Shown here: positions 7,310 to 24,104 of the stretch, in pieces
Position numbering within the stretch: the stretch's first letter is position 1
Layout of the letters: each line of letters opens with the position of its first letter
Origin: a virus
Strand: one strand, 5' to 3'
DNA: 26,389 nucleotides
Virus record (IMG/VR): IMGVR_UViG_3300020438_000233
Coordinates: 1 to 26,389 of that record
Notes under the pieces: model-generated
Told to the model about the DNA's origin: nothing
Seen by the model: only the letters and a program-made list of their open reading frames with translations
Database searches by the model: none
Program-made: the position numbers and the translations under genes

Positions 7310-7876
7310 TTAAACCGGTATGTTCGCAATTGTGTTGTCCCATTCACGTGGATATTCACCTTGTTGCGTTGTCAACGTGATCGCCGTTCCATTTGCGTCT
7401 TGCAATGCAACACCCGTTGTTTGTTCACCCGTTGTGAATTCCATATATGCCGTTTCCTCAAAAATTTGATCCCAACCTAAAACGAACTTATATGTAACTG
7501 ACGGATCTGCACAATCGTCCGCGTATGTTTCCACAATCGCCGTGATTCCACAACTCGTAACCAATTCCATTAAATCCGCATTCACTTCGCACGTTACCTT
7601 TGGAATGTAGAATTCCAAACTAATTTCAATCATTGTTGAACCGTTTTCACGTGTTGCACTTGCCGTGAATCCCGCCGTTCCTCTTTCAAATTCCCATTTG
7701 TAAAAAACGTCTGTTCCCGGTGTTGCCATTGTCACGTCGTCATATGCGTGTTGACAACCCGTCCCCGGAATTGAAAACGACGCAATTTGATCGGTGTTCG
7801 CTAAATATATTGATTTTAAACCGCCACGTCTGTTTCTGTCGCAACAAACGACCGTATGTCCTGATGTAATTGCCAT
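7310..7876 (-). CDS. Probable tail tube (major tail) protein
   Basis: A 188-residue beta-rich protein directly after the major capsid gene. The N-terminus CCDRNRRGGLKSIYLANTDQI resembles the start of tail tube proteins of Bacteroidetes siphophages, and the C-terminal region (TTGVALQDANGTAITLTTQQ, then GEYPREW) matches their G...ALGD..GY.LT.. pattern. It would form the hexameric rings of the tail around the tape measure. It also contains at least seven Cys (for example 11, 12, 41), unusual for a tube protein. A capsid decoration protein is the main alternative. It is far from the other tail genes, which weakens the call. Confidence 0.55.
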   Translation of the reverse strand: MAITSGHTVVCCDRNRRGGLKSIYLANTDQIASFSIPGTGCQHAYDDVTMATPGTDVFYKWEFERGTAGFTASATRENGSTMIEISLEFYIPKVTCEVNADLMELVTSCGITAIVETYADDCADPSVTYKFVLGWDQIFEETAYMEFTTGEQTTGVALQDANGTAITLTTQQGEYPREWDNTIANIPV

Positions 7877-10985: not shown

Positions 10986-13900
10986 TTAAAAACTAATTCT
11001 TGATTCAATGTTTTTGACGCTTTTTTGTGAATTCGTCACGTCCGCTTCAACCAACAACACTTGTTGATTGTTTATTTCACCAATTAATGTTTCCGCCAAT
11101 GTTGATTCGGTTGATAACGTATCGGTTTCCATAACAATTCCACCGTCCGCGAACTTTCGTCCACCACCGGCAACATTCATTTGTGATAATATAGGTTTGA
11201 ACATTTGTGTTGAACGTTTATTAATAACCGCTTCGCCACCCTCTAATTCGGCAACACGTCCACCAACCGCAAATTTTTCACCACCTTGTGCGTGTGATTT
11301 TCCAACAACCATTCCGCCTTTTGCAAAAAACGAATCGTCCATTATTCCACCCAATTCCGCCGTCGGTGGTGCTTGTGCGTTAATTGTTGCGATCTGAATT
11401 CCGGTCATTGCTATTGTTCCCGCAATCATAATTCCTTTAATTATTGCGTCCGCAATTGCGTTTCCGGTTGCCGTTGCACTCAATATGTTCATTATGGCTT
11501 GTGCGCCACCAATGATTGCTTGTGTCTTTGCCAACGCTTTGTCTTTTTTCCATTGCTCAATTTTCAACTTTAACATTTCGTCGTCGTGCTTTTTTTCAAT
11601 GGCTTCAATCTTTGTCGCCCGTTCCTCGTCGGTCATAATTTCATATTCCGCCGTTTCCTCAAATGCTTTTATTTCTTGATCTTTTTCTGTTTGAATTCCT
11701 TGCAATTTGGTGTTCAATTGTTCTTGTTGCAATTGATTAAATGCGTCCAATGTTGATGACACGGAATCCAATGTGACGTTTATTCCGTCAATTAATTGTT
11801 CACCCGTTAATGGTTCGCCATTTTCCGGATCGTGTCCAAATACCGCACTTTGCAAAAATCCTTTGTTGTCGCCACCCATATTGGACAATTGATTTTGAAA
11901 CTTTGCAATGTTATCTTGTAAAGTGTTAATTTTGTCAATTGTATCTTTTGACGTGTCGCCGGTTGCTTGTGCCACTAATAATGCGGATTTCAATTCCGCT
12001 TGTGCAACTTTCAATGACATTTGAATTCGTTCTTTTCCGACCTTTGCGTTTGCTTTGCTTAAATCGTCCAAAACTTTTTCTTGCAATTTCAACCCGTCAA
12101 CAATTTTGTCATTATCTGCAATTTGTTGGTCAATTGTTTTTCCTTGATCGTCAACAACCACATTATATTCTTTTGCAACCTTCACCAATGTTCCTTCAAC
12201 GTCCGCCAAATCTTTTTTAGATTTTTTTAAATTATTTGTTGCGGTTTCAATTGCTTCGCTTGATTCCAAATTAATTTGTTTAATTCGTTCCTCTTTTTGT
12301 TCCTCGGACATTTTTTCCGCTTCTGCGCTATTCAAAAACGCTTGTTTCTTTTGTTCACGTGTAACGATTAAATTCTTTAATTCACGTTCTTGGTTTGCCA
12401 CTTCATTTTTAAAATCACGCATTAAATTAACGGATTCTGTTGACGCGCTTGAAAACGATCGTGTTGATATGGTTAATCCGTCCAACGCTTCAACACGTTC
12501 GTCAAATGAATCTTTAATTTGTCGTTCCAAATCTGTCATTTCCGTGTTTAAAACGATATTTTCTTTCGTCAATTCACCTTCACGTTGTGCGTTTTGAATC
12601 ATTACGTCACTTCTTGCATTCATTGATAACATTGAATCCTCGGCATTTGTTTTTTCGGTTTCCAAATTGTGAACCATTTCCACCCCCTCTTTTTTCAATT
12701 GCAACGTTAATGCGTGTGAATTTCCTAAACGGTCACCCGTGGCAATGTTGACGTCACTTTGGATATCATTGAATTTTGTTAAATCGTCCGTGTATGTTTG
12801 CGTATCGGTGGACAATTGTGGCAAAATCAATTTCGTGTCGTCCAACGCGTCGTTGGTGTCGTGGATTCCGTCCAACACTTCACGATTATTATTTTTTAAT
12901 CGGTTTCCGTCCTCAATTAATGTCGCGGTGTTTCGGACGCCTTTATTCGCACGTTCTATTTCACCCAATGTCAATTCCGAATTCACTTTTGTCAATTCTT
13001 TGTTGTTGTCTTTTAATTGTGACGACAATTCCAATTGACGTTGAATTAATAATTCAATTTCTTTTTCACTTGCTTGAATAATAATCCGTTCTTTTATGGC
13101 ATTAACCAAACCTTGATATGAATTTTCAACTTGTTCAATAATTTCTTTTTCGGATAATAGATTGGAAATGTTTGTTCCCGCTAATTTGTTAAAATTTTCC
13201 AATGCTTTTTCACGATCTTTTTGTGCAATGTTCGTGTTCTTTATTGTTTCAACCAATTGTTTTGCCTTTGCGATTTCCTCGTTTTGTGATTGAACAAATT
13301 TCTTTTTGGAATCCGTGATGTCTTTTTGCAATTGTTCTTGACGTGTCAATTCTTTGTTTTCCTCCTCCATTGCCTTGGTTAATTCGTCCGTTGAATCGGT
13401 TGCGTCGTCCGTTCCAAATATCCAATCGGACAATGCAACAATTCCAAATGTCAAACCACTAACCAACAAACCAATTGGATTCAATTTAATTGCTTTGTTG
13501 AATGCTTTCATTGATATTGTTCCGCCTTTTATTGAAATTCCAAAACCTTTCATTGCGGTTTTTGAAAATCCTAATGCCGTTGTAAATCCAACTTGTTGAA
13601 TTCTCATTGCCAACATTACGGTTTTATATGCACCCAATGGAATTAAAATATATTGAATGTTTTCAATTAATTTAGTTAAACCGGTGAATAATAATCCAAC
13701 ACCGTCCACCAACAATCGCAACGCCGGTTCAACACTTTCAACCATTTCAATCACAAATCCCGACATTGATGATGTGGTTGCGTCAATTGATCCTTTTAAT
13801 GAATCCCGCATTTCTTTTGCGAATGTGGACAACGAACCCTTTGAATCTTTTAATTTTGAATTCAATGCGTCAATCTTTGACGAACCGTCCAATAATGACG

Positions 13901-15101
13901 CGAATGCCGTAACCGAACGTTGATCCGTTAATTCTAACATTTCCGTCACATTGATTCCGTCCGCTTGTAATTGTTGTAATGCCGGAATTAAATCGTCAAC
14001 GCTTGTAACTGAATCGCCCAATGCTTTTGCCAATGGTGACGACGCGTCCGCCATTTTCAAAAATATATTTCTCAACGACGTTCCAATAACACTTGCGTCC
14101 AAACTTTTGTCCGCCAAAACACCCATTAATGACGTTACGTCCTCTAATGAAAAACCAACCGTGTTCGCAACCGCACCCACTTTTGGAAATGCCGTTGTGA
14201 ATTTTGTCATATCTAATGCGGAATTAGAAAACGCCGTTGATAAAACGTCGGTCACACGTGCGGTTTCGGACGCGTCCAAATTAAACGAATTCAAAATTCC
14301 ACCAATTGTTTCACCCGCCGTTGCCAAATCCGTATCAAACACAAACGCCAAATCCAATGCGGACGCCGTCATATTTTCAATTTCCGTTGGATCAAAACCT
14401 AATTTTGCCAATTCAACTTGTAATCCGGCAACCTCACCCGCCGTGAAACTTGTTGTTCGTCCCAACTCTTTTGCGCTTTCGGTCAACATATCCATTTCCT
14501 CGGCGGACGCACCCGAAATAACACCAACTTGTTTAATTTGAAATTGGAAATCCGTAAATTCTTGAATTCCACGTTGGAATGTTTTGAAAACTAAAATTGC
14601 ACCCGTCACCGCCGTTGCAACCGCACCGAATGATGTTTTTAATCCACTTAATGCCGAACCATAATTTCCGACATTTCTTTGTTGACGTCCCATTTGCGCG
14701 TCCATTTCCTTCAATTGATCGGTGTTCTTTTTCATTTGTCCCGATAATTCTTGAAACTTTTTTTTGTTTGCGCCCAATGGATCACCCAATTTTCGCAATT
14801 CTTGTGACAATTTTGCGTTTTGTTTAACCAACGAATCGTATGATTTGGAATTATCGCCCAACGCTTTTGCATTTTTCACCAATTCCGTTTTGGATTTCGT
14901 CATTTCACCGCGTAATCCTTTTAATTTCGTTTCCGCCGTTACAACTTTGGCATTAAATTGATCTTGTGTTTGTCCCGCTTGAACACCTTCTTTTTTTAAA
15001 TCTTTTAATTCTTGTGCGGTTTGGTCAATCGCGGATTTCAATTTAACCATTGAATCCGTTCCTTTAACCTCTATATTTAAAATCGTGTCTAATGTTGCCA
15101 T
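10986..15101 (-). CDS. Tail tape measure protein
   Basis: A 1371-residue protein, the longest in the window. Residues 1-140 are coiled coil; about 185-420 match the TP901-type tape measure core (QIKQVGVISGASAEEMDML, ELGRTTSFTAGEVAGLQVEL, TAFPKVGAVANTVGFSLEDV). Hydrophobic segments occur at about 158-176, 470-505, 545-568 and near 1210-1240. Long coiled coils fill 570-1170. The C-terminus has a Gly-rich, beta-type region with GKSHAQGGEKFAVGGRVAEL then EGGEAVIN (about 1268-1292). Tape measures fix tail length; at about 0.15 nm per residue this one would give a tail near 200 nm (an estimate). It starts 12 bases after the 1169-residue gene. Confidence 0.95.
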   Translation of the reverse strand: MATLDTILNIEVKGTDSMVKLKSAIDQTAQELKDLKKEGVQAGQTQDQFNAKVVTAETKLKGLRGEMTKSKTELVKNAKALGDNSKSYDSLVKQNAKLSQELRKLGDPLGANKKKFQELSGQMKKNTDQLKEMDAQMGRQQRNVGNYGSALSGLKTSFGAVATAVTGAILVFKTFQRGIQEFTDFQFQIKQVGVISGASAEEMDMLTESAKELGRTTSFTAGEVAGLQVELAKLGFDPTEIENMTASALDLAFVFDTDLATAGETIGGILNSFNLDASETARVTDVLSTAFSNSALDMTKFTTAFPKVGAVANTVGFSLEDVTSLMGVLADKSLDASVIGTSLRNIFLKMADASSPLAKALGDSVTSVDDLIPALQQLQADGINVTEMLELTDQRSVTAFASLLDGSSKIDALNSKLKDSKGSLSTFAKEMRDSLKGSIDATTSSMSGFVIEMVESVEPALRLLVDGVGLLFTGLTKLIENIQYILIPLGAYKTVMLAMRIQQVGFTTALGFSKTAMKGFGISIKGGTISMKAFNKAIKLNPIGLLVSGLTFGIVALSDWIFGTDDATDSTDELTKAMEEENKELTRQEQLQKDITDSKKKFVQSQNEEIAKAKQLVETIKNTNIAQKDREKALENFNKLAGTNISNLLSEKEIIEQVENSYQGLVNAIKERIIIQASEKEIELLIQRQLELSSQLKDNNKELTKVNSELTLGEIERANKGVRNTATLIEDGNRLKNNNREVLDGIHDTNDALDDTKLILPQLSTDTQTYTDDLTKFNDIQSDVNIATGDRLGNSHALTLQLKKEGVEMVHNLETEKTNAEDSMLSMNARSDVMIQNAQREGELTKENIVLNTEMTDLERQIKDSFDERVEALDGLTISTRSFSSASTESVNLMRDFKNEVANQERELKNLIVTREQKKQAFLNSAEAEKMSEEQKEERIKQINLESSEAIETATNNLKKSKKDLADVEGTLVKVAKEYNVVVDDQGKTIDQQIADNDKIVDGLKLQEKVLDDLSKANAKVGKERIQMSLKVAQAELKSALLVAQATGDTSKDTIDKINTLQDNIAKFQNQLSNMGGDNKGFLQSAVFGHDPENGEPLTGEQLIDGINVTLDSVSSTLDAFNQLQQEQLNTKLQGIQTEKDQEIKAFEETAEYEIMTDEERATKIEAIEKKHDDEMLKLKIEQWKKDKALAKTQAIIGGAQAIMNILSATATGNAIADAIIKGIMIAGTIAMTGIQIATINAQAPPTAELGGIMDDSFFAKGGMVVGKSHAQGGEKFAVGGRVAELEGGEAVINKRSTQMFKPILSQMNVAGGGRKFADGGIVMETDTLSTESTLAETLIGEINNQQVLLVEADVTNSQKSVKNIESRISF

Positions 15102-15113
15102 AATTGTATTTTA

Positions 15114-18100
15114 TTAAATAATGTCCTCGTTTCCTTTAACAACACGCGTGTAATAATGTGTTGTTTGTCTTTTTAATTTTGATGTTTGCGGAATTCCCGT
15201 CATAACTTCTTTTAATTCACCGGTTGTTGTGTCCTCGTAATAAACCACACCGCCACCGCCTTCCATAAAAATTCCATTGTTTGTCACACACATTGCCGTT
15301 TTTCCATTTTGTGTGAATTCAATTGGACGATTTGACGCCGGATTATTTTTGTTCCCAATAACAATTTGTCCTTTGTGATATACTTCCAATCCGTCACCAA
15401 TTGCCGTTCCACCATTGTTGACCACTTTATTGTTTCCACCAATTGACAATCCGTTTCCTAAATTACCCGTCACCGGAACACGTTGACCACCGGCGAAATA
15501 ATTTTTTCCACCCGTGAAACCTTTTGTTGGATTGTCCGAATTAAACGGAATGTTTTGCGGTAGATATGACGTTGTTTTAATTGGCGTTTCATTTCCCACC
15601 GGATATTCTGAAAAAATCCCCAAATCATTATTAATATATTTGATTGGAATTTTTGTTGTTCCATTTGGTGCAATTGGAATTGGTGTGTAATCGGAAAACG
15701 TTGGTGTCAAATTAATTCCAAAACCTTCATTGATCCCGTTGAATTTAGATTTTAATGGTTGAACATTGTGATATTCAAACAATTCAACCTTTGTCAAAAC
15801 ATTCTTTGAACCTTTATAATCTTGAATTTTATTTAAAATCCAATATGTGTCCGATTGTTCGGAACGGATAAAGATTAATTTTTGATAATCTAAATTTGCA
15901 ATGTCATATGGTGACAATTTAAAATATGCACTTTTAATTTTTGGACGATCCAATAATGTCAATATGTTAAATTCCCAAAACATTTCATATAATCCACTTG
16001 TTTGTGCATATGGTGGATTTGTTGGAACTGCATTAATATCGGAATTCTCAAAATACAATGACGGCGAATCATATGTGAAACCACCAAATGCAAACGAACC
16101 ACCAATTGTTCCGTCTTGATCGCAATAAACACCGCCAAATGGATAGTATTGTTTTAATTGATATGGTGATGTATTTCCGGAATAACCCCATTTCCAACGG
16201 TTTGAATTTGTTCCGCCGTCAATCTGATTTAATGGTTGTAATCCATACCACACCAAAATTCGCGGTGTCCATTCTGTTAATTTATCCGGCAAATCATTTG
16301 GATTCGTCACCGACCATATCGCGGTATATTCACCGTGAATCACCGGAATGAATGGTTGTTTATATGCACCCAAATTTGTTGAAATTGTTTTATCATAAAA
16401 CATATATGTTGGCGCATAAAAATCCGAACCAATTTTTTGGTCGTCGTCCTCGTATAGATCACCCAAATTCATTGCGTGTGTTCCTAATTCACACGTTTGG
16501 TTTTTCAACATATTTCGTTCCTCAACAAATCCGTCGTCGCCGTCATTCTCATATGTGAAACAAAGATTTCGTTTTAATGCGTCATAAATATATTTGTTGT
16601 TTTCGTTTTCGGATTTATCCAATTTGTCCGTCCAATCAATTGCATTTGCCGGTGTGTCAAAAAATCCGTTTCGCGGTTCACAATAAACCGTTTTTGAATT
16701 TTCATCTGATTGCCACATTAAATTGAACATTCCCGTTAATCCATTAACATAATCCAATTGTGAAATATCACACGGCAATAAATTTGACAAATTAAATGAA
16801 CCGTTTTCAATTGTTGTTGCCGTTAATCCACCATAAAATTTCGCATTTTTGACACGATATTGCATTTGTGTTAATGCTAACACGTCACCGGCAATTGACC
16901 AATTCGTTTCCTCGTATTGCCAAAATTCTGCGGTCACCTCGGTATAAATCCAAACACGATCGTTTTGATGTTCAACCGCAACTTGAACACCGGAAAATTC
17001 TAATTCCCATTCATAATTTCCACTTGACGACGGTTGCATTTGTCCGCCCGTTCCTTGTGTCCACATTCCCGACGGTGGTGTTGGATTTTGATTTGCACCC
17101 GCATATAATCGTTTTGAATCAACAACAATTGCGTGTGTTGTGTCGGTGTCATATTTATAATGCATTAAAAACATATTCGCAACCAACCTTTGTCCATTAT
17201 AAAATCCTTCATAATCCCACGAATTCGGTGCATTATTATTTCCACTAAATAAACCGTTTCCGTCACCACCCGCGCCCGTTCCTTCAAAATATCCACCACC
17301 CCAAATTGAAACGGTGTCCCCGTATTGTGAAACGGGATCATTCAATGCATAATCATTGTTCATTTCAACGACCGCTTTGCCACCGAATTCAAACACACCC
17401 AAAAAATTTGTTTGGAATGCGTCGCAATTGAATGGAATGTTTTGTGTTGTTGTTGAACCGTTTGGAATATCACAAGGAACACAAGAATAATCACCACCCA
17501 CAATAACCGCTTGACCGGTGCAAATGGAATTGTCAATGCCCGGACTACGACCACCCATTGTGTATGATGTTGAATAAATGTCCCACCACCAACCCGAAAA
17601 ACAAGGAATGTTGGTGTTTTGTCCCGCAATAATGTTTGACGGTGTTTGAACGTCAACCATAACCATTGGAACGTTTTGATTTGTGATTAATCCGGACGGA
17701 TCATTGACCATATTCATATTTTGCAAACCACCGTGAAATGTGTTCCCAACCACACCCGCGCAACTGTTTGGCGTTCCACTTGTGTTTTGATAATTGATTG
17801 GAATTTTCCACGCCGTCACGTCGCCTTGTTCATATTCAAATGCGAAATCGTCCAATGTTGCAACGGTGTTTGTAATATCACCTTTTGGAATTAATGACGT
17901 TAATCGTCTGAACCAATCCGTTTCAAAAAAGTTTGAAACCAAATTATAACCTTGTTGTGCAAAGATTAATTTCAAAACGTTGTATAAATAAAACGCCGGT
18001 TGCATATCGTGTGTTGAAACAAAATTTCCCTCAACCCATTTTCCCGTATTTACTAACGGATAAACCACGTGTGTTTGTGTTGGTTGTCCGCCTTGTGTTA

Positions 18101-18623
18101 ATGTTTCACCCGCCAATCCAAATTGCCACGTTAATTCAATTGCGTCACGATTGTAATTAATAACTTCCGGCGCATTCGGAAATAAATCACCGGCGGAAAA
18201 ATCAATGTCACACAAATTCAATTCGGACATACGATTAACCCACCGATAATTGTCACCAAAAACATTGCATTCATAAGATTGTGGAATGCCTTTATATGTT
18301 GTTCCCTTTATTTGAAACTTACCCGCCAACACCAACAATCCGTCAATAAAAATTCGCGCGTCTTGATCCTCAATATATTGGAATGAATTATAAAGTGAAT
18401 CGGAATATAAATTTTTTAAAATCCGATTATTATTTTTTGTTGCCGGAATTTTGAATGTTTTTGAAAACGAACCTTTTGACGATTGCGGATCTTGAACGTC
18501 TTTGATTGAATAAGTTAATGCCAACGGAAAATCCGTTGCGCTTTCAATTTCTAATTCACCCGTCACATTCATTGTTCCGGTGTCCACAATTTGAAAAACT
18601 ATATTTGGAATGTATTGCGCCAT
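15114..18623 (-). CDS. Large tail/baseplate protein with C-terminal YadA-like beta-roll
   Basis: An 1169-residue protein just before the tape measure. The N-terminal 170 residues, with KGSFSKTFKIPATKNNNRIL (about 50-69) and an LVLAGKFQIKG strand, resemble the first domain of the large tail-tip proteins of Bacteroidetes siphophages. The middle is Asn/Gly/Tyr/Trp-rich and beta-predicted, including YSCVPC. Residues about 1053-1092 (GNGLSIGGNNKVVNNGGTAI then GDGLEVYHKGQIVIG) form a repeated short-strand pattern like the YadA head beta-roll of trimeric adhesins. It is probably the tail hub or receptor-binding tip. Next gene starts after a 12-base gap; the 464-residue gene precedes it by 9 bases. 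Confidence 0.7.
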   Translation of the reverse strand: MAQYIPNIVFQIVDTGTMNVTGELEIESATDFPLALTYSIKDVQDPQSSKGSFSKTFKIPATKNNNRILKNLYSDSLYNSFQYIEDQDARIFIDGLLVLAGKFQIKGTTYKGIPQSYECNVFGDNYRWVNRMSELNLCDIDFSAGDLFPNAPEVINYNRDAIELTWQFGLAGETLTQGGQPTQTHVVYPLVNTGKWVEGNFVSTHDMQPAFYLYNVLKLIFAQQGYNLVSNFFETDWFRRLTSLIPKGDITNTVATLDDFAFEYEQGDVTAWKIPINYQNTSGTPNSCAGVVGNTFHGGLQNMNMVNDPSGLITNQNVPMVMVDVQTPSNIIAGQNTNIPCFSGWWWDIYSTSYTMGGRSPGIDNSICTGQAVIVGGDYSCVPCDIPNGSTTTQNIPFNCDAFQTNFLGVFEFGGKAVVEMNNDYALNDPVSQYGDTVSIWGGGYFEGTGAGGDGNGLFSGNNNAPNSWDYEGFYNGQRLVANMFLMHYKYDTDTTHAIVVDSKRLYAGANQNPTPPSGMWTQGTGGQMQPSSSGNYEWELEFSGVQVAVEHQNDRVWIYTEVTAEFWQYEETNWSIAGDVLALTQMQYRVKNAKFYGGLTATTIENGSFNLSNLLPCDISQLDYVNGLTGMFNLMWQSDENSKTVYCEPRNGFFDTPANAIDWTDKLDKSENENNKYIYDALKRNLCFTYENDGDDGFVEERNMLKNQTCELGTHAMNLGDLYEDDDQKIGSDFYAPTYMFYDKTISTNLGAYKQPFIPVIHGEYTAIWSVTNPNDLPDKLTEWTPRILVWYGLQPLNQIDGGTNSNRWKWGYSGNTSPYQLKQYYPFGGVYCDQDGTIGGSFAFGGFTYDSPSLYFENSDINAVPTNPPYAQTSGLYEMFWEFNILTLLDRPKIKSAYFKLSPYDIANLDYQKLIFIRSEQSDTYWILNKIQDYKGSKNVLTKVELFEYHNVQPLKSKFNGINEGFGINLTPTFSDYTPIPIAPNGTTKIPIKYINNDLGIFSEYPVGNETPIKTTSYLPQNIPFNSDNPTKGFTGGKNYFAGGQRVPVTGNLGNGLSIGGNNKVVNNGGTAIGDGLEVYHKGQIVIGNKNNPASNRPIEFTQNGKTAMCVTNNGIFMEGGGGVVYYEDTTTGELKEVMTGIPQTSKLKRQTTHYYTRVVKGNEDII

Positions 18624-18632
18624 AACTTGTTT

Positions 18633-20027
18633 TTAATATCTTGGATTTCTTTGGTTAATTGAACGTTCAAATGTGAATTTCATTTTCACCATATTGTTTG
18701 TTGTTCTCCACTTTTCAATCGTTGCACCTTTTATTTTAATTGGATTGAAATAATATGGTTGTTCACGCGCCCTTTCTGATTGATCCGGATCGGCAATTTG
18801 TAAATATGAATCATTATTGTCACGCAAATAAACGTCAACCGACGAAAACATTTCCGCGAAATGATCGGCGAATTTTCTTTTCATTGGTTGTGTTGTTACT
18901 GTAAAAACTTCAATGTTTTCATTCGCCCAATTTTGTTCACCAAATGACATTTGATTTGCCCACTTTGTGTAACCTTGTGATTTCTGAAAATCTGAAAATT
19001 TGTTTTTAACCTTCACTTGATATGCACCCGTTGATGAAACAAGATCATAACCGCCCAACATATTTTTAAACGCAAAACGCAAATATCCTTTTCCAACACA
19101 CGTTCGGTCAACTTTAAATTTCCAATCAATTGCGCTTGTTCCATATGTGCAAGGTGCGGAATTGTTTGTGCAACATAACATTCGGACGCGATAATTAACG
19201 ACATTGATAAAATCCGCACCCTCTGATCCGTTTGGTGTTAATCCGTCAATCACGTCACGCATTCCAATCATTCCCGTTTGCATTGCACGGTTAGTGTTTA
19301 CGGGAACGGTGTGGTTGTTGAAATTTGTGTTATACCCTTCGTCATATGTTGAAATTTGGAATTGATAACCTTGTGGATTTGCCGGTGGACTATACCACGC
19401 AACCATAAATGATTCCGTTGGTCTTATGTTTACATTGTATGACATTCTTGATCCTACGCCTTCAATCGGATAATTCGTCAAATAATGTTTCCCATTCTCA
19501 TATTGATTATAGTTTAACATATAGTATTTGAAAATTGTATTATTCAAACCATTGTTTGAAACCAATGAACCCAACCATTTTCGTGGTGGACAACCTTCGT
19601 GAATATAAAAATAATTTGAATAATATGGTGTTGGATCAATTTCAACCAATCCTTGCGAATTAATGAATTCACGTTGGAACATAACACGAACTTTCCACGT
19701 TGCAATGTCGTCCCAAACTCGGATTGTGTTCACCATTCCACCCGACCAATTTCCAATCGTCATTCCCGGCATATCCGCCAATGTGTATTTTGTCAACGTG
19801 TTAAAAATTTCACTTGAATCAAAATAAAAATAATCCGGAAAATCTAAATTTGGTGCTAATCTATATTCACCACCAATTTGAACGTCCGTCCCGCCGGTGT
19901 CCTCATAATAACATTTTGCGATTATGTTTGTTGTGTCGGCAACCGTGTCAACAACGGTGATTGTCAACGGGACTAATGTTGAACATAATTTGTTTGATTG
20001 CGGTTGATTTGTTACTGTTGTTGGCAT
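18633..20027 (-). CDS. Tail/baseplate structural protein
   Basis: A 464-residue beta-rich protein between the neck genes and the large tail protein. The C-terminal third has LRFAFKNMLGGYDLVSSTGA followed by FSDFQKSQGYTKWANQMSFG, a pattern I know from tail-tip proteins next to the large tail protein in flavophages. The earlier part contains Trp/Tyr-rich strands and a Cys cluster (MLCCTNNSAPC). No enzyme motif is seen. It may be a distal tail component or a fiber base. Its start ATG 20027 follows the gp10-like gene by 4 bases, in one run of tightly packed genes. Confidence 0.6.
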   Translation of the reverse strand: MPTTVTNQPQSNKLCSTLVPLTITVVDTVADTTNIIAKCYYEDTGGTDVQIGGEYRLAPNLDFPDYFYFDSSEIFNTLTKYTLADMPGMTIGNWSGGMVNTIRVWDDIATWKVRVMFQREFINSQGLVEIDPTPYYSNYFYIHEGCPPRKWLGSLVSNNGLNNTIFKYYMLNYNQYENGKHYLTNYPIEGVGSRMSYNVNIRPTESFMVAWYSPPANPQGYQFQISTYDEGYNTNFNNHTVPVNTNRAMQTGMIGMRDVIDGLTPNGSEGADFINVVNYRVRMLCCTNNSAPCTYGTSAIDWKFKVDRTCVGKGYLRFAFKNMLGGYDLVSSTGAYQVKVKNKFSDFQKSQGYTKWANQMSFGEQNWANENIEVFTVTTQPMKRKFADHFAEMFSSVDVYLRDNNDSYLQIADPDQSERAREQPYYFNPIKIKGATIEKWRTTNNMVKMKFTFERSINQRNPRY

Positions 20028-20031
20028 AATT

Positions 20032-20556
20032 TTATATTGTTATTAATATGTTTTCCGGCAACGCGTTCGCCACTATTCGTTGAACTTCTGATTGATAAAT
20101 GGTTGCCAATTTATTCACTTCTTTGTCAATTTGGATTTTAGATTTTGAAACAAATCCCAATTTATTTTTATCCATTGGATTTCCCAAACCTTCACCACCT
20201 TTTGCCGTTTGTTTTCTTGCTATTGCAAACGCAATTCCACGAACAACGTCATTGTCACTTGCGATTCCTTTTATTTTAATCCAATTCATTAATCCTTCAA
20301 TGTATTTGGAATTTCCCGCACCCGTGCGAACACTTGCGTCATATGGAATGTTTGCACCCGTCACACCATATTCAACATATCGCCAATAATAATCACCTTT
20401 GATTTTTAAGACAAAATTAAATTCGCCTTGTGGCAATAAATCGTGTGTCAATGAATTTATCAAACGACCGGACGCATTTCGTTGCAATGCGATTAATTTC
20501 AATCCCAATATCACATTGATTTCGTGTCCAATACTGTTTGCAAATTCTAAATTCAT
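20032..20556 (-). CDS. HK97 gp10-like neck/tail-completion protein
   Basis: A 174-residue protein matching the pattern of the HK97 gp10 family: N-terminal helix, ASGRLINSLTHDL (28-40), the beta hairpin DYYWRYVEYGVTGANIP (about 55-71), then KYIEGLMNWIKIKGI (84-98) and VRGIAFAIARKQTAKGG. These proteins sit at the head-tail joint or tail end and help in joining. The basic C-terminal half could form helices that pack in a ring. The neighbours upstream are a probable tail terminator and tail chaperone genes. Function by family, not by unique residues. Confidence 0.72.
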   Translation of the reverse strand: MNLEFANSIGHEINVILGLKLIALQRNASGRLINSLTHDLLPQGEFNFVLKIKGDYYWRYVEYGVTGANIPYDASVRTGAGNSKYIEGLMNWIKIKGIASDNDVVRGIAFAIARKQTAKGGEGLGNPMDKNKLGFVSKSKIQIDKEVNKLATIYQSEVQRIVANALPENILITI

Positions 20557-20559
20557 AAT

Positions 20560-21030
20560 TTATATTTCTTTACAATAACGATAAAAGTTAAAACCAAACG
20601 TCACTTTCAACGCTAACAAACGGTCGTTTGACGCTTCTTTTAATCTTGTGATCTGAATTGGTGACTTCATAATAAAATCGTGTCCTTGTGCTTCATAATA
20701 ATACCACCATTGATAAAACCAATTTAAAATTTGATCCTCAATCGTGTCCCAAAATTCCAAAATCGCTTGATTGTCGGTGATGTTATATTGTGACGGCAAT
20801 ATGTTGTAAACTGTAAACGTCCAATTTGTGTCATTGGATAATGTGTTTTTATTCCACGCGTCCGTTTGTATTGTGACTTGTGGTGTGTTCATAACCATTA
20901 ACGGCAAATTCTTATTGTGTATGTTGTCAACTTCTTGTGGATTTCCAAAATAGAATGAACCACCGGTTGATCCCAACCACGTTGCGGTCATATTGTCCAC
21001 GATTTTATTTGTCTTTACATTTTGCGCCAT
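20560..21030 (-). CDS. Probable tail terminator/completion protein
   Basis: A 156-residue alpha/beta protein. LPLMVMNTPQVTIQT, NWTFTVYNILP and the C-terminal ALKVTFGFNFYRYC form alternating beta strands, while AILEFWDTIEDQILNWFYQW is an amphipathic helix, a fold pattern like gpU-type tail terminators. It lies between the chaperone frames and the gp10-like protein, spaced by 3 and 7 bases. The exceptional Trp/Tyr content (LNWFYQWWYYYEAQ) is notable. Alternative: another minor virion protein. No known catalytic motif. Confidence 0.5.
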   Translation of the reverse strand: MAQNVKTNKIVDNMTATWLGSTGGSFYFGNPQEVDNIHNKNLPLMVMNTPQVTIQTDAWNKNTLSNDTNWTFTVYNILPSQYNITDNQAILEFWDTIEDQILNWFYQWWYYYEAQGHDFIMKSPIQITRLKEASNDRLLALKVTFGFNFYRYCKEI

Positions 21031-21037
21031 AATTTAT

Positions 21038-21343
21038 TTATCTTTTATTGTTTCGTCTTGCGTTTGCTTTCATTTTTTGTTCCTCGTCCATTGATGTTCG
21101 CACCGCGTCATTATATTCATTGTTTGCACTTTTCCAACTCAAATAAGTTAACACAACATATAAATTTGTGTTCCTTACTGAATCAATTGCATTGTCCGGA
21201 TTTTTAGTAAACAAACCCGTTTTTGCAACGTCATATAATGTGTTTAACCACCCGTATGGTTTCATAATTTCCCAATGTTTTGTTGCGTGTCTGTTTTCAA
21301 TTCGGTTTCCGTCTTTGAATATGTTTGGAAATTTTGATTGCAT
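21038..21343 (-). CDS. Probable tail assembly chaperone, second frame (GT T-domain)
   Basis: The frame is open from well before ATG 21343, overlapping the 232-residue gene. It contains KHWEIMKPYGWLNTLYDVAK and NTNLYVVLTYLSWKSANNEY, a helical pattern like the second domain of tail assembly chaperones. From ATG 21343 it encodes 101 residues. It can also be entered by a -1 shift at the T10 run (21362-21371), which would give a fusion of about 307 residues with the upstream protein. Lambda gpG/gpGT is the model, where only a few percent of ribosomes shift. ATG 21343 (CATATGC context) would permit separate translation; both routes are possible. In other siphophages the pair is directly before the tape measure, but here four genes lie between. 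Confidence 0.65.
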   Translation of the reverse strand: MQSKFPNIFKDGNRIENRHATKHWEIMKPYGWLNTLYDVAKTGLFTKNPDNAIDSVRNTNLYVVLTYLSWKSANNEYNDAVRTSMDEEQKMKANARRNNKR

Positions 21344-21960
21344 ATGTTTATTTGTTTGGTCAAAAAAAAAACGAATTTCCACACAATGTCCATTGTTAAT
21401 TCTTGAAACATTTTTGTTTTCTTTTGAATTAATTGTTCGTCATAAACTTCATTTTTTTCACGACACAAAATTGCCATTTGTTCACCAATCACCGACATTT
21501 TTTTTGCGTCTTGTTTTTGTGCAACCATATCCAATTGCGCCGTTTCAATATAATCGCCAAACGTGTTTGTTTCCATATTGATAAATGGAAAAACATATTC
21601 TTTGTTTTTATATCTAAAGGAAAACGCTTCGTCCAAATCCGTATATTCGCCCGTTGAATTATTTAAAAAATTCGTCATTAACGTGATCGTTTCATTCATT
21701 TGTTTAATATCGGTTTGATTAACCACTTGTTCGGACAATCCGGTTAATTGTGAAAACACTTTGCGATTCGTTCGGACATTGTGCAATTCTCGTTCCTTGT
21801 CCAACACTTCCAACGCGTCTTTGTTAATTGGTTGTTCGTCCGGTTCAACGAATTCATTTCCAATAATCACGGCGTAAACCTTCGCGTAATCTTTTAATTT
21901 TATTTCCTTCCATTGTTCCGGAAGGTGACAATTATGTTCGCCAACTTTTAAATTAATCAT
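21262..21960 (-). CDS. Probable tail assembly chaperone, first frame (G-like)
   Basis: A 232-residue protein starting MINLKVGEHNCHLPEQWKEI, a form (short strand, then LP..W.EI) I know from tail assembly chaperone genes of phages of this type. A second recognisable segment is YVFPFINMETNTFGDYIETA. The last 32 residues beyond the slippery run are specific to the unshifted product. The gene overlaps the preceding one by 8 bases and the following -1 frame by 121 bases. It would bind the tape measure C-terminal region or tail tube subunits during tail assembly and is not expected in the virion. Alternatively it is another conserved phage protein and the overlap is accidental. Confidence 0.65.
   Translation of the reverse strand: MINLKVGEHNCHLPEQWKEIKLKDYAKVYAVIIGNEFVEPDEQPINKDALEVLDKERELHNVRTNRKVFSQLTGLSEQVVNQTDIKQMNETITLMTNFLNNSTGEYTDLDEAFSFRYKNKEYVFPFINMETNTFGDYIETAQLDMVAQKQDAKKMSVIGEQMAILCREKNEVYDEQLIQKKTKMFQELTMDIVWKFVFFLTKQINICNQNFQTYSKTETELKTDTQQNIGKL
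21362..21371 (-). other. Ten-T slippery run for -1 frameshift
   Basis: On the minus strand the run reads TCG-TTTTTTTTTT-GACC. In the upstream frame the codons are GTT TTT TTT TTG; sliding back one base gives TTT in the A site and continues into the downstream frame as TTT GAC CAA. The frames are exactly in -1 relation (codon boundaries at 21369 and 21370). T-runs of this kind are known slippery sites for tail chaperone frameshifting. The same run could cause transcriptional slippage instead. Confidence 0.65.
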
Positions 21961-22432: not shown

Positions 22433-23746
22433 TTATCCAAAATAAACGATCCGTTGTTTGTTTAATTCAAAATAAAAACGCATAATTAATGCGTCCGCAA
22501 TATCCGGTGAATGTCCCAATAATTGTTTGATTTTATCCTTTGGTGTGATTTCCAATTTATTGTCTTTGTCAACATTGTGTTGTTTCACCATTTCAAATTC
22601 CATAATGATTTTATTTTTTAATTCATTATCATTTGTTTTAATAAACACTTCACCATTCATAACCATTTGCGCGAACCGATAATAACATTGTGTTTTCAAA
22701 TTACGAAAATTCTCATTGTCCATTGCTTTTGAATTATTGACAAACGATTTGCATTTTAGCATATCAACAAAACCACCACCAACACCGTCCGAATCCGCGA
22801 TAATATGTGATCGTTGAACATTGTTTTCGTTGGCAATCTTTTTGACATACTCAACCAATTCGTCAATTGTGTTTTTATCAAATGTTTTAATCATTTCACA
22901 ACGCCAACCATTCCATAAACATATCACCGATTTGTCCCGTCCATATCGTGCAACGTCAACGGAAATAAATTTTTGATTTGTTGTTGGAACGTGTTCATTG
23001 GTGAATAAATCATTCAATGCGTCAATTGAAAATAATTGTGAATCGTCGTCGCTATATTCCCAATCACCAAATAATAATCTTTTTTGATTTAATACGTCCA
23101 AACGTTTTAATTGTTCAATGTAATGTTTTGAAATGTTTGGATTGTCCGTGACTAATGATTGAATAAACTTGTGATTGTTTGGCAATTCATTTTGTTTATA
23201 TGGCTTGTAAAATTGCGAATAAATCCAACCCTTTGACGGATTGCAAGTCAACAATGTCTTTGGAATTAAATTGTGTTTATCTAAATTGAAACGCATTCGT
23301 GATTGAATCACATTATATGCCATTGGTGTGATCTCGGTTGATTCGTCAATAAACGCACCGGTTATTTCCATTGAACCCAATGAATCAAAATTTGGATCAC
23401 TTGGATAATGAAATAAATCTTTTAATAAAATTTCGGATTTGCTTTGGTGAATTGTAATCACCGATTTTGTTTCGTTATATGTGAAATCAACATTTGCGTT
23501 TAATCCTTGCATTGCGCAAACTTCAAACAATGATTTTAATGTTGTTTCTTTTAAATTTTTTAATCGTGATCGTGCAATGACATAACGTGTGTTTGGATAT
23601 TTCAAACATTGTTTTAAAACCCAATAACACCCCAATAAAGATTTGCCACCACCCGCGCCACCACCATATAATATGACGTTGGTTGTGTCGTCCTCTAAAA
23701 AATCAATCGCCGTCGTTTGTTTTATTGATAATTCCATTTTCCGCAT
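22433..23746 (-). CDS. terL: Terminase large subunit (TerL)
   Basis: A 437-residue protein from ATG 23746; ATG 23737 is an alternative and the upstream TTG at 23761 is unlikely. The ATPase domain has Walker A GGGAGGGKS (28-36), Walker B with AFIDES (131-136), and the coupling segment TLLTCNPSKGW (164-174). The nuclease domain has acidic residues in ISVDVARYGRDKS (D264), IIADSDGVGGG (D318, D320) and SPDIADAL (D418), the RNase H-like fold that cuts concatemeric DNA. It packages DNA into the prohead through the portal. The gene overlaps the small terminase by 44 bases. Packaging type (cos or pac) cannot be told from this sequence. Confidence 0.95.
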   Translation of the reverse strand: MRKMELSIKQTTAIDFLEDDTTNVILYGGGAGGGKSLLGCYWVLKQCLKYPNTRYVIARSRLKNLKETTLKSLFEVCAMQGLNANVDFTYNETKSVITIHQSKSEILLKDLFHYPSDPNFDSLGSMEITGAFIDESTEITPMAYNVIQSRMRFNLDKHNLIPKTLLTCNPSKGWIYSQFYKPYKQNELPNNHKFIQSLVTDNPNISKHYIEQLKRLDVLNQKRLLFGDWEYSDDDSQLFSIDALNDLFTNEHVPTTNQKFISVDVARYGRDKSVICLWNGWRCEMIKTFDKNTIDELVEYVKKIANENNVQRSHIIADSDGVGGGFVDMLKCKSFVNNSKAMDNENFRNLKTQCYYRFAQMVMNGEVFIKTNDNELKNKIIMEFEMVKQHNVDKDNKLEITPKDKIKQLLGHSPDIADALIMRFYFELNKQRIVYFG

Positions 23747-24104
23747 ATGTTTTGGTTTCAATCCAATTAATTGGTTTCCCGTCCATACCGGTCAATTCTT
23801 GACGTTCAACATAACCACGTGATTTTCCTTTTGTTTTTAAATAAAATAAAATACACGGAACGTTCCCGTCTTTTATTTGTTTCCATAATTCGGATTCACA
23901 AATGTCAATTGCAACCTCGGTGATGTCGTCAACCGATTTCGCAAATTGTTCGTCGTCTTGATAATAACGATAAAACGTGGATCGTGAACATTTACCGAAA
24001 TGACACGCCAACGTGACGTTTCCCATATTTTGTTCCAAATGTTTTAATAACGTGTCCTTTGTTATTGATGTGCGTTTTTGTTCCTTTTTTTTAGATTGTC
24101 CCAT
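23703..24104 (-). CDS. terS: Terminase small subunit (TerS)
   Basis: A 133-residue protein just before and overlapping terL. Residues about 16-47 form a helix-turn-helix (TLLKHLEQNMGNVTLACHFG then CSRSTFYRYYQDD) that recognises the packaging start. Residues 55-95 form the oligomerisation helices, including ELWKQIKDGNVPCILFYLKT, followed by the hallmark GKSRGYVERQELTGMDGKPI. The ring of TerS loads TerL on DNA. The N-terminus is Lys-rich, which may contact DNA. ATG 24104 is 11 bases after the 49-residue gene stop. Confidence 0.88.
   Translation of the reverse strand: MGQSKKKEQKRTSITKDTLLKHLEQNMGNVTLACHFGKCSRSTFYRYYQDDEQFAKSVDDITEVAIDICESELWKQIKDGNVPCILFYLKTKGKSRGYVERQELTGMDGKPINWIETKTYAENGIINKTNDGD

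Follow-up and report, generated by a model that had tools for sequence, protein, structure and literature searches.

A probable frameshift gene pair in the window

The window that we analysed, a 26.4-kb IMG/VR record, contains two overlapping minus-strand reading frames, G and T, that probably form the G/G-T frameshift gene of a Bacteroidota siphophage, tail-chaperone-like in character, with ribosomal slippage as the somewhat likelier cause of the shift. Judged from its conservation in relatives, the frameshift itself is almost certainly used. G, the upstream 0-frame ORF (21262..21960, minus strand), begins with ATG and encodes 232 aa, the product expected without a shift. The T frame is in the -1 frame relative to G; its ORF, counted from a GTG at 21382, spans 21038-21382 on the minus strand (114 aa) and overlaps G by 121 nt, and the frame is open 175 nt upstream of the G stop. 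The slip site, a run of ten T within the overlap (21362..21371, minus strand), is read in G as GTT TTT TTT TTG and contains both T_TTT_TTT and T_TTT_TTG in phase. Past the run lies a stretch of 100 nt (21262..21361, minus strand) in which both frames are open and which holds 33 codons of G.

According to our model, most translation would give the 232-aa G, while a minority would slip backwards by a single base at the T run and continue in T (21038..21364, minus strand; 108 aa plus stop, beginning F-D-Q). The product would comprise 199 + 108 = 307 residues and pass through V-F-F-F-D-Q, with T as a C-terminal domain of G. We infer that this G-T fusion is made in the cell. The sequence-only reading had proposed the same pair, and every one of its coordinates for G, the T frame and the T run was right. 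The ORF positions bear out the exact -1 relation and the 121-base overlap that it described, the ten-T run lies inside the overlap in the codon phase that it gave, the T frame is open well before its first ATG (21341..21343, minus strand), and frame arithmetic returns its lengths of about 307 residues with a shift and 232 without.

The run is the only coding-strand T run of at least eight in the window, where 18 others have length 6 and five have length 7. When all genes were recoded synonymously using their own codon usage, 0.3 runs of at least nine T were expected per window. By itself, the rarity of T10 is only suggestive of function. Conservation in relatives is the stronger evidence, and it is conservation that decides the matter.

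The run and the -1 relation in close relatives

Searches with G alone, using direct tblastn and pattern searches, found no relative in named phages or in IMG/VR. A terminase search returned 18 related contigs, and these contigs, together with loci found with a T profile, provided 31 distinct slip sites, which we call family 1. T is in the -1 frame of G at all 31 loci, and the site reads NNT TTT TTT TTG, with nine or ten T, at every one. Ahead of the two Phe codons stands GTT, ATT, CTT, GCT or AGT; in this codon the first and second positions vary, and the third is T throughout the 31 loci. T is better conserved than G, with 61-78% identity to the window compared to 50-56% for G. The sequence-only reading had named related phages as the place to see whether the run and the -1 relation are kept; both are, here and in the remote family described below.

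For the T10 clade, we measured position-specific diversity on an alignment free of gaps. Upstream of the run, diversity is highest at the third position of G codons (0.42, versus 0.21 at the second position). The run itself is invariant. Downstream, diversity is highest at the third position of T codons (0.39-0.44), with the first position of T codons equally variable over the first 27 nt. Since the phase of diversity switches from G to T around the run, T is predicted to be translated from about the run on. As read from these alignments, the -1 relation and the site are conserved and T is coding from the run onwards.

A second, remote family and single-frame homologues

Modelled with AlphaFold2 (pLDDT 74.7), G matched unnamed viral models, including that of gp38 of Nonlabens phage P12024S. 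Close to its end, gp38 has a T9 run, and the phage also carries a T-like -1 frame that is not annotated. At this locus (23136-23827), the -1 extension follows the T9 run at 23578, and the annotated gp39 (23663-23830) corresponds to only the end of the T domain; as a stand-alone gene, gp39 is probably a misannotation. Pairwise hhalign comparisons of family 1 with this second family gave E values of 2.6e-10 for G, 6.9e-8 for T and 1.8e-13 for the joined profiles, which supports homology of both parts at the level of sequence profiles. The gp38 search found 63 family-2 loci and a search with its T profile more than 347. The second family spans P12024S, a Galbibacter prophage and hundreds of contigs.

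Among the 78 distinct family-2 loci from the T-profile search, T is in the -1 frame of G in all 78. The run is T9 in 69, T10 in seven, T8 in one and broken in one. The T8 locus (L178:2981-3030) reads GGT TTT TTT TAC and has an intact pair; the broken one (L166:237-290) reads AAT TTT ATA TAC and has seemingly lost the run. Six loci come from cellular genomes, all of Bacteroidota and all with T9: a Galbibacter pacificus isolate, Dysgonomonas, Winogradskyella, Flavobacterium and two Bacteroidetes MAGs.

Phages of Flavobacterium psychrophilum have the homologue in a single frame. In Flavobacterium phages 2A and FPSV-D15 it is a 293-aa protein, matched with weaker profile E values (1.3e-4 and 2.5e-5, respectively), and this protein, as far as the profiles reach, is the fusion as such. 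In Flavobacterium phage 6H (L062:10352-10927), indels relative to 2A and FPSV-D15 break the 293-aa frame, likely through sequencing errors or a real disruption. Because of these indels, we left the apparent frame changes of 6H out of the evidence.

These comparisons bear on two ways in which the pair could be something other than a frameshift gene. One is that T is an independent protein, begun at GTG 21382 or ATG 21343, with the frameshift unused. The T frame of the window does hold a GTG and an ATG, but neither start is conserved. In relatives, the first T-frame ATG is found at differing places, near or after the G stop and often past conserved T residues, so independent initiation is unlikely; ATG 21343, which the sequence-only reading had put forward as the start that an independent T would use, is thereby disfavoured. 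A separately initiated T would also leave the keeping of the run and of the -1 relation unneeded, and we regard this explanation as very improbable. The other is an assembly error in a homopolymer, the gene being truly one continuous frame. Long homopolymers are error-prone, and the homologues in 2A and FPSV-D15 are indeed in one frame, but the same length and frame relation recur across many samples in more than 100 contigs, and also in two phages and one bacterial genome obtained from isolates. Such an error is scarcely credible.

Possible dual coding past the slip site

The 0 frame continues past the slip site for 31-33 codons in the T10 clade. At 76 of the 78 family-2 loci it continues for 40-82 codons, which is nearly the whole T domain (the long dual-coded region is present in L066-L124, L128-L207 and L209-L213). 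Synonymous recoding of T rarely left the 0 frame open so far in family 2 (P <=0.012 in 18 of 21 tested), compared with P values of 0.4-1 in the T10 clade and values down to 0.007-0.02 for some of the T9 clade. This pattern suggests selection on both frames in family 2, a contrast with most of the window's family. For the window's own family, we dropped the idea of a special constraint on the 0-frame tail, as the composition of the T protein mostly explains its openness.

Gene order and the identity of the pair

Two genes upstream of G, on the same strand, is the gene for the terminase large subunit (22433..23761; PHROG 2, E 1.4e-33; Pfam Terminase_6N). The tape measure gene (10986..15101, minus strand; PHROG 1533, E 1.8e-62) is located downstream of T beyond four genes: 20560..21030 (minus strand), which follows T directly and has no assigned function; 20032..20556 (minus strand), which is at the Neck1/tail-completion position of P12024S, a correspondence of position only; 18633-20027; and 15114-18623. 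The order terminase, u21953, G, T, n20560, n20032, n18633 was found in nearly all family-1 contigs that are long enough, with u21953 missed in a few. The n20560 homologue is duplicated in two contigs (L003:8740-9800 and L004:7894-8954), and in two others (L006:3028-3915 and L007:6304-7191) the matches to window 20560-21030 are split by about 420 nt.

The Galbibacter prophage contains, in order, terminase, G/T, a 149-aa gene, a homologue of P12024S gp42, two genes and the tape measure gene, followed by a protease, a capsid-region gene and a homologue of P12024S gp03. Exactly four genes thus separate the pair from the tape measure gene, as they do in the window. In P12024S, where gp42 matches Neck1 (PHROG 5, E 4e-4) and gp49 has a match to a tape measure profile, the series starts alike and more genes are inserted ahead of the tape measure gene. 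The distance between the pair and the tape measure gene is therefore a rule of the lineage and no peculiarity of the window. The sequence-only reading had counted four genes correctly; its remark that such a distance is not usual does not hold for this group, where it is the normal order. Cellulophaga phi10:1 and Flavobacterium 11b were set aside as comparisons, as they have the terminase in common yet differ in module order. The gene after the capsid gene (window 7310-7876) reads like a tail tube protein and gave no match in PHROG or Pfam. This tube candidate is far from the G/T pair, and its position is occupied by gp03 in P12024S and by 17389-17898 in Galbibacter (PHROG 19091).

We consider it likely that G and G-T function as a tail chaperone, since a conserved -1 G/G-T pair is found upstream of the tape measure gene of a long-tailed phage and there is weak fold similarity. 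By analogy with lambda gpG/gpGT, G would coat the tape measure and T would recruit the tail tube protein. The sequence-only reading had called the pair a tail assembly chaperone in the lambda layout. The conserved -1 pair, the run and the fusion are as it proposed, and no named chaperone family was matched in Pfam, PHROGs or PDB sequences by single-sequence or member-wise scans. A PDB fold search with the G model returned nothing. Its BFVD fold matches were mostly unnamed, with the best named chaperone a weak one (A0A8S5V8Z8, E 0.086), and the AlphaFold2 model of T was poor (pLDDT 50.8).

That the frameshift pair is real and serves another purpose, such as a head-tail or neck assembly factor, is in our view unlikely, although several features fit it: the pair comes directly after the terminase genes and ahead of the Neck1-like gene, it is not between the tube and tape measure genes, and its fold similarity to named chaperones is weak. 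Against it, long-tailed phages have a recognised chaperone signature in just such a conserved -1 G/G-T pair ahead of the tape measure gene, and the neighbours are tail or neck genes.

Ribosome or RNA polymerase

T_TTT_TTT is in phase at 31 of 31 family-1 loci and at nearly all family-2 loci, and an in-phase heptamer of this kind is what tandem -1 slippage needs. The most likely mechanism would be tandem tRNA slippage on U_UUU_UUU (and U_UUU_UUG) in the absence of strong stimulators; RNA polymerase may slip on that run too, as a contributor or even as the dominant source. We found no conserved downstream hairpin or pseudoknot (mean z -0.2 to -0.5 over 31 sequences), an Rfam search was empty, and no Shine-Dalgarno-like element upstream of the site was common to the clades. 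GGGAG precedes the site in the T9 clade only, where GAG makes up 36% of Glu codons; we dropped TGGGAG as a candidate Shine-Dalgarno element, as it is present in one clade only. Low-level slip sites like that of lambda can work without a stimulator.

Given that no stimulator is conserved and that these genomes otherwise avoid long A runs, polymerase slippage competes seriously with ribosomal slippage as the main source of the shift. Polymerase would slip on T9 or T10 to produce mRNAs that have gained one U or lost two, and ordinary translation would then give G-T, so that the ribosome need not slip. Seven T would suffice for the heptamer, yet the run has nine or ten at 31 of 31 family-1 loci, 76 of 78 family-2 loci and six of six loci in cellular genomes. 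Where the first codon contributes one T (GCT, AGT, GGT), a TTG codon follows the run of Phe codons and nine T are kept; the T8 locus departs from this. In coding sequence of all loci with long ORFs, with the slip site excluded, A runs of at least nine are about four-fold depleted (8 versus 30.8 expected), whereas A8 runs are not (38 versus 38.5); T runs of seven or more number 17 versus about 39 expected, and the slippery phase is not favoured among them. Across bacterial genomes, avoidance of such runs most often sets in at a length of nine, and a T9 whose length is conserved in homologues is taken as likely purposeful slippage (Baranov et al., PMC1088944). On the other side, the residues V/I/L-F-F-Y/L and an in-phase heptamer would alone yield nine or ten T, the T8 locus keeps an intact pair, and the avoidance of long runs may equally reflect replication slippage. 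Because the tail-chaperone frameshifts described in a review (PMC5009743) are ribosomal, we favour ribosomal slippage as somewhat more likely; an efficiency of 6-7% has been obtained experimentally for a tail-chaperone frameshift (PMC3711429). Polymerase as the main agent is a distinct, if lesser, possibility. With about the same probability, this widespread Bacteroidota phage lineage might set its G:G-T proportion at transcription by polymerase slippage, with family-2 DNA coding in two frames for nearly all of T and for an alternative G C-terminus of 40-82 codons. In a literature search that most subscription journals lay outside, tail chaperones and transcriptional slippage were joined only in general recoding papers.

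Discussion

Together, the two families appear to represent a large unannotated group of Bacteroidota phages in which a -1 slip on a T9 or T10 run leads to a short and a long form of one protein, probably the forms of a tail-building chaperone. The ratio of G to G-T is critical for lambda tail assembly. If polymerase makes the shift here, tail assembly would be controlled at transcription. With the isolated phage P12024S and the Galbibacter prophage, the family offers an experimentally simple case for telling ribosomal from polymerase slippage by predictions that differ and can be measured directly, in a phylum where recoding has been little studied. For hundreds of genes labelled 'hypothetical', PHROG 32199 among them, the comparison also provides a likely function, and it reveals that the annotated second ORFs of these pairs are cut short or missing.

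The closest model for the pair is lambda gpG/gpGT (Xu, Hendrix and Duda; summarised in PMC5009743). As in that system, a short G and a low-level -1 fusion G-T would be made from a slip late in G, ahead of the tape measure gene, and the arrangement is conserved across relatives. Unlike lambda-type pairs, the one described here has a T9 or T10 run as its slip site and no sequence match to them, lies next to the terminase and four genes from the tape measure gene, not after the tube gene, has a T better conserved than G, and carries a long 0-frame tail, of 31-33 codons for the T10 clade and 40-82 for most family-2 loci. Programmed transcriptional slippage, known from Shigella spa13, Thermus dnaX, the A11 run of Citrobacter tssM1 and IS elements (PMC5009743, PMC1088944, PMC4256274), has in common with it a homopolymer of at least nine, a length kept among homologues, no stimulators and a longer shifted product. 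It differs in that ours is a phage gene of tail-chaperone layout, with a run that includes an in-phase ribosomal heptamer as well.

Phages 2A and FPSV-D15 (Duneviridae) encode their 293-aa hypothetical protein, profile-similar to G-T, upstream of the tape measure gene as well, but in one continuous frame for which a slip is unneeded. P12024S gp38 (PHROG 32199, no assigned function) with its -1 partner differs from the window in a run that ends in TAT rather than TTG, in a T annotated in part (gp39) and in very low identity; it is alike in G and T that are homologous by profile, in its T9 run and in the same gene order after the terminase.
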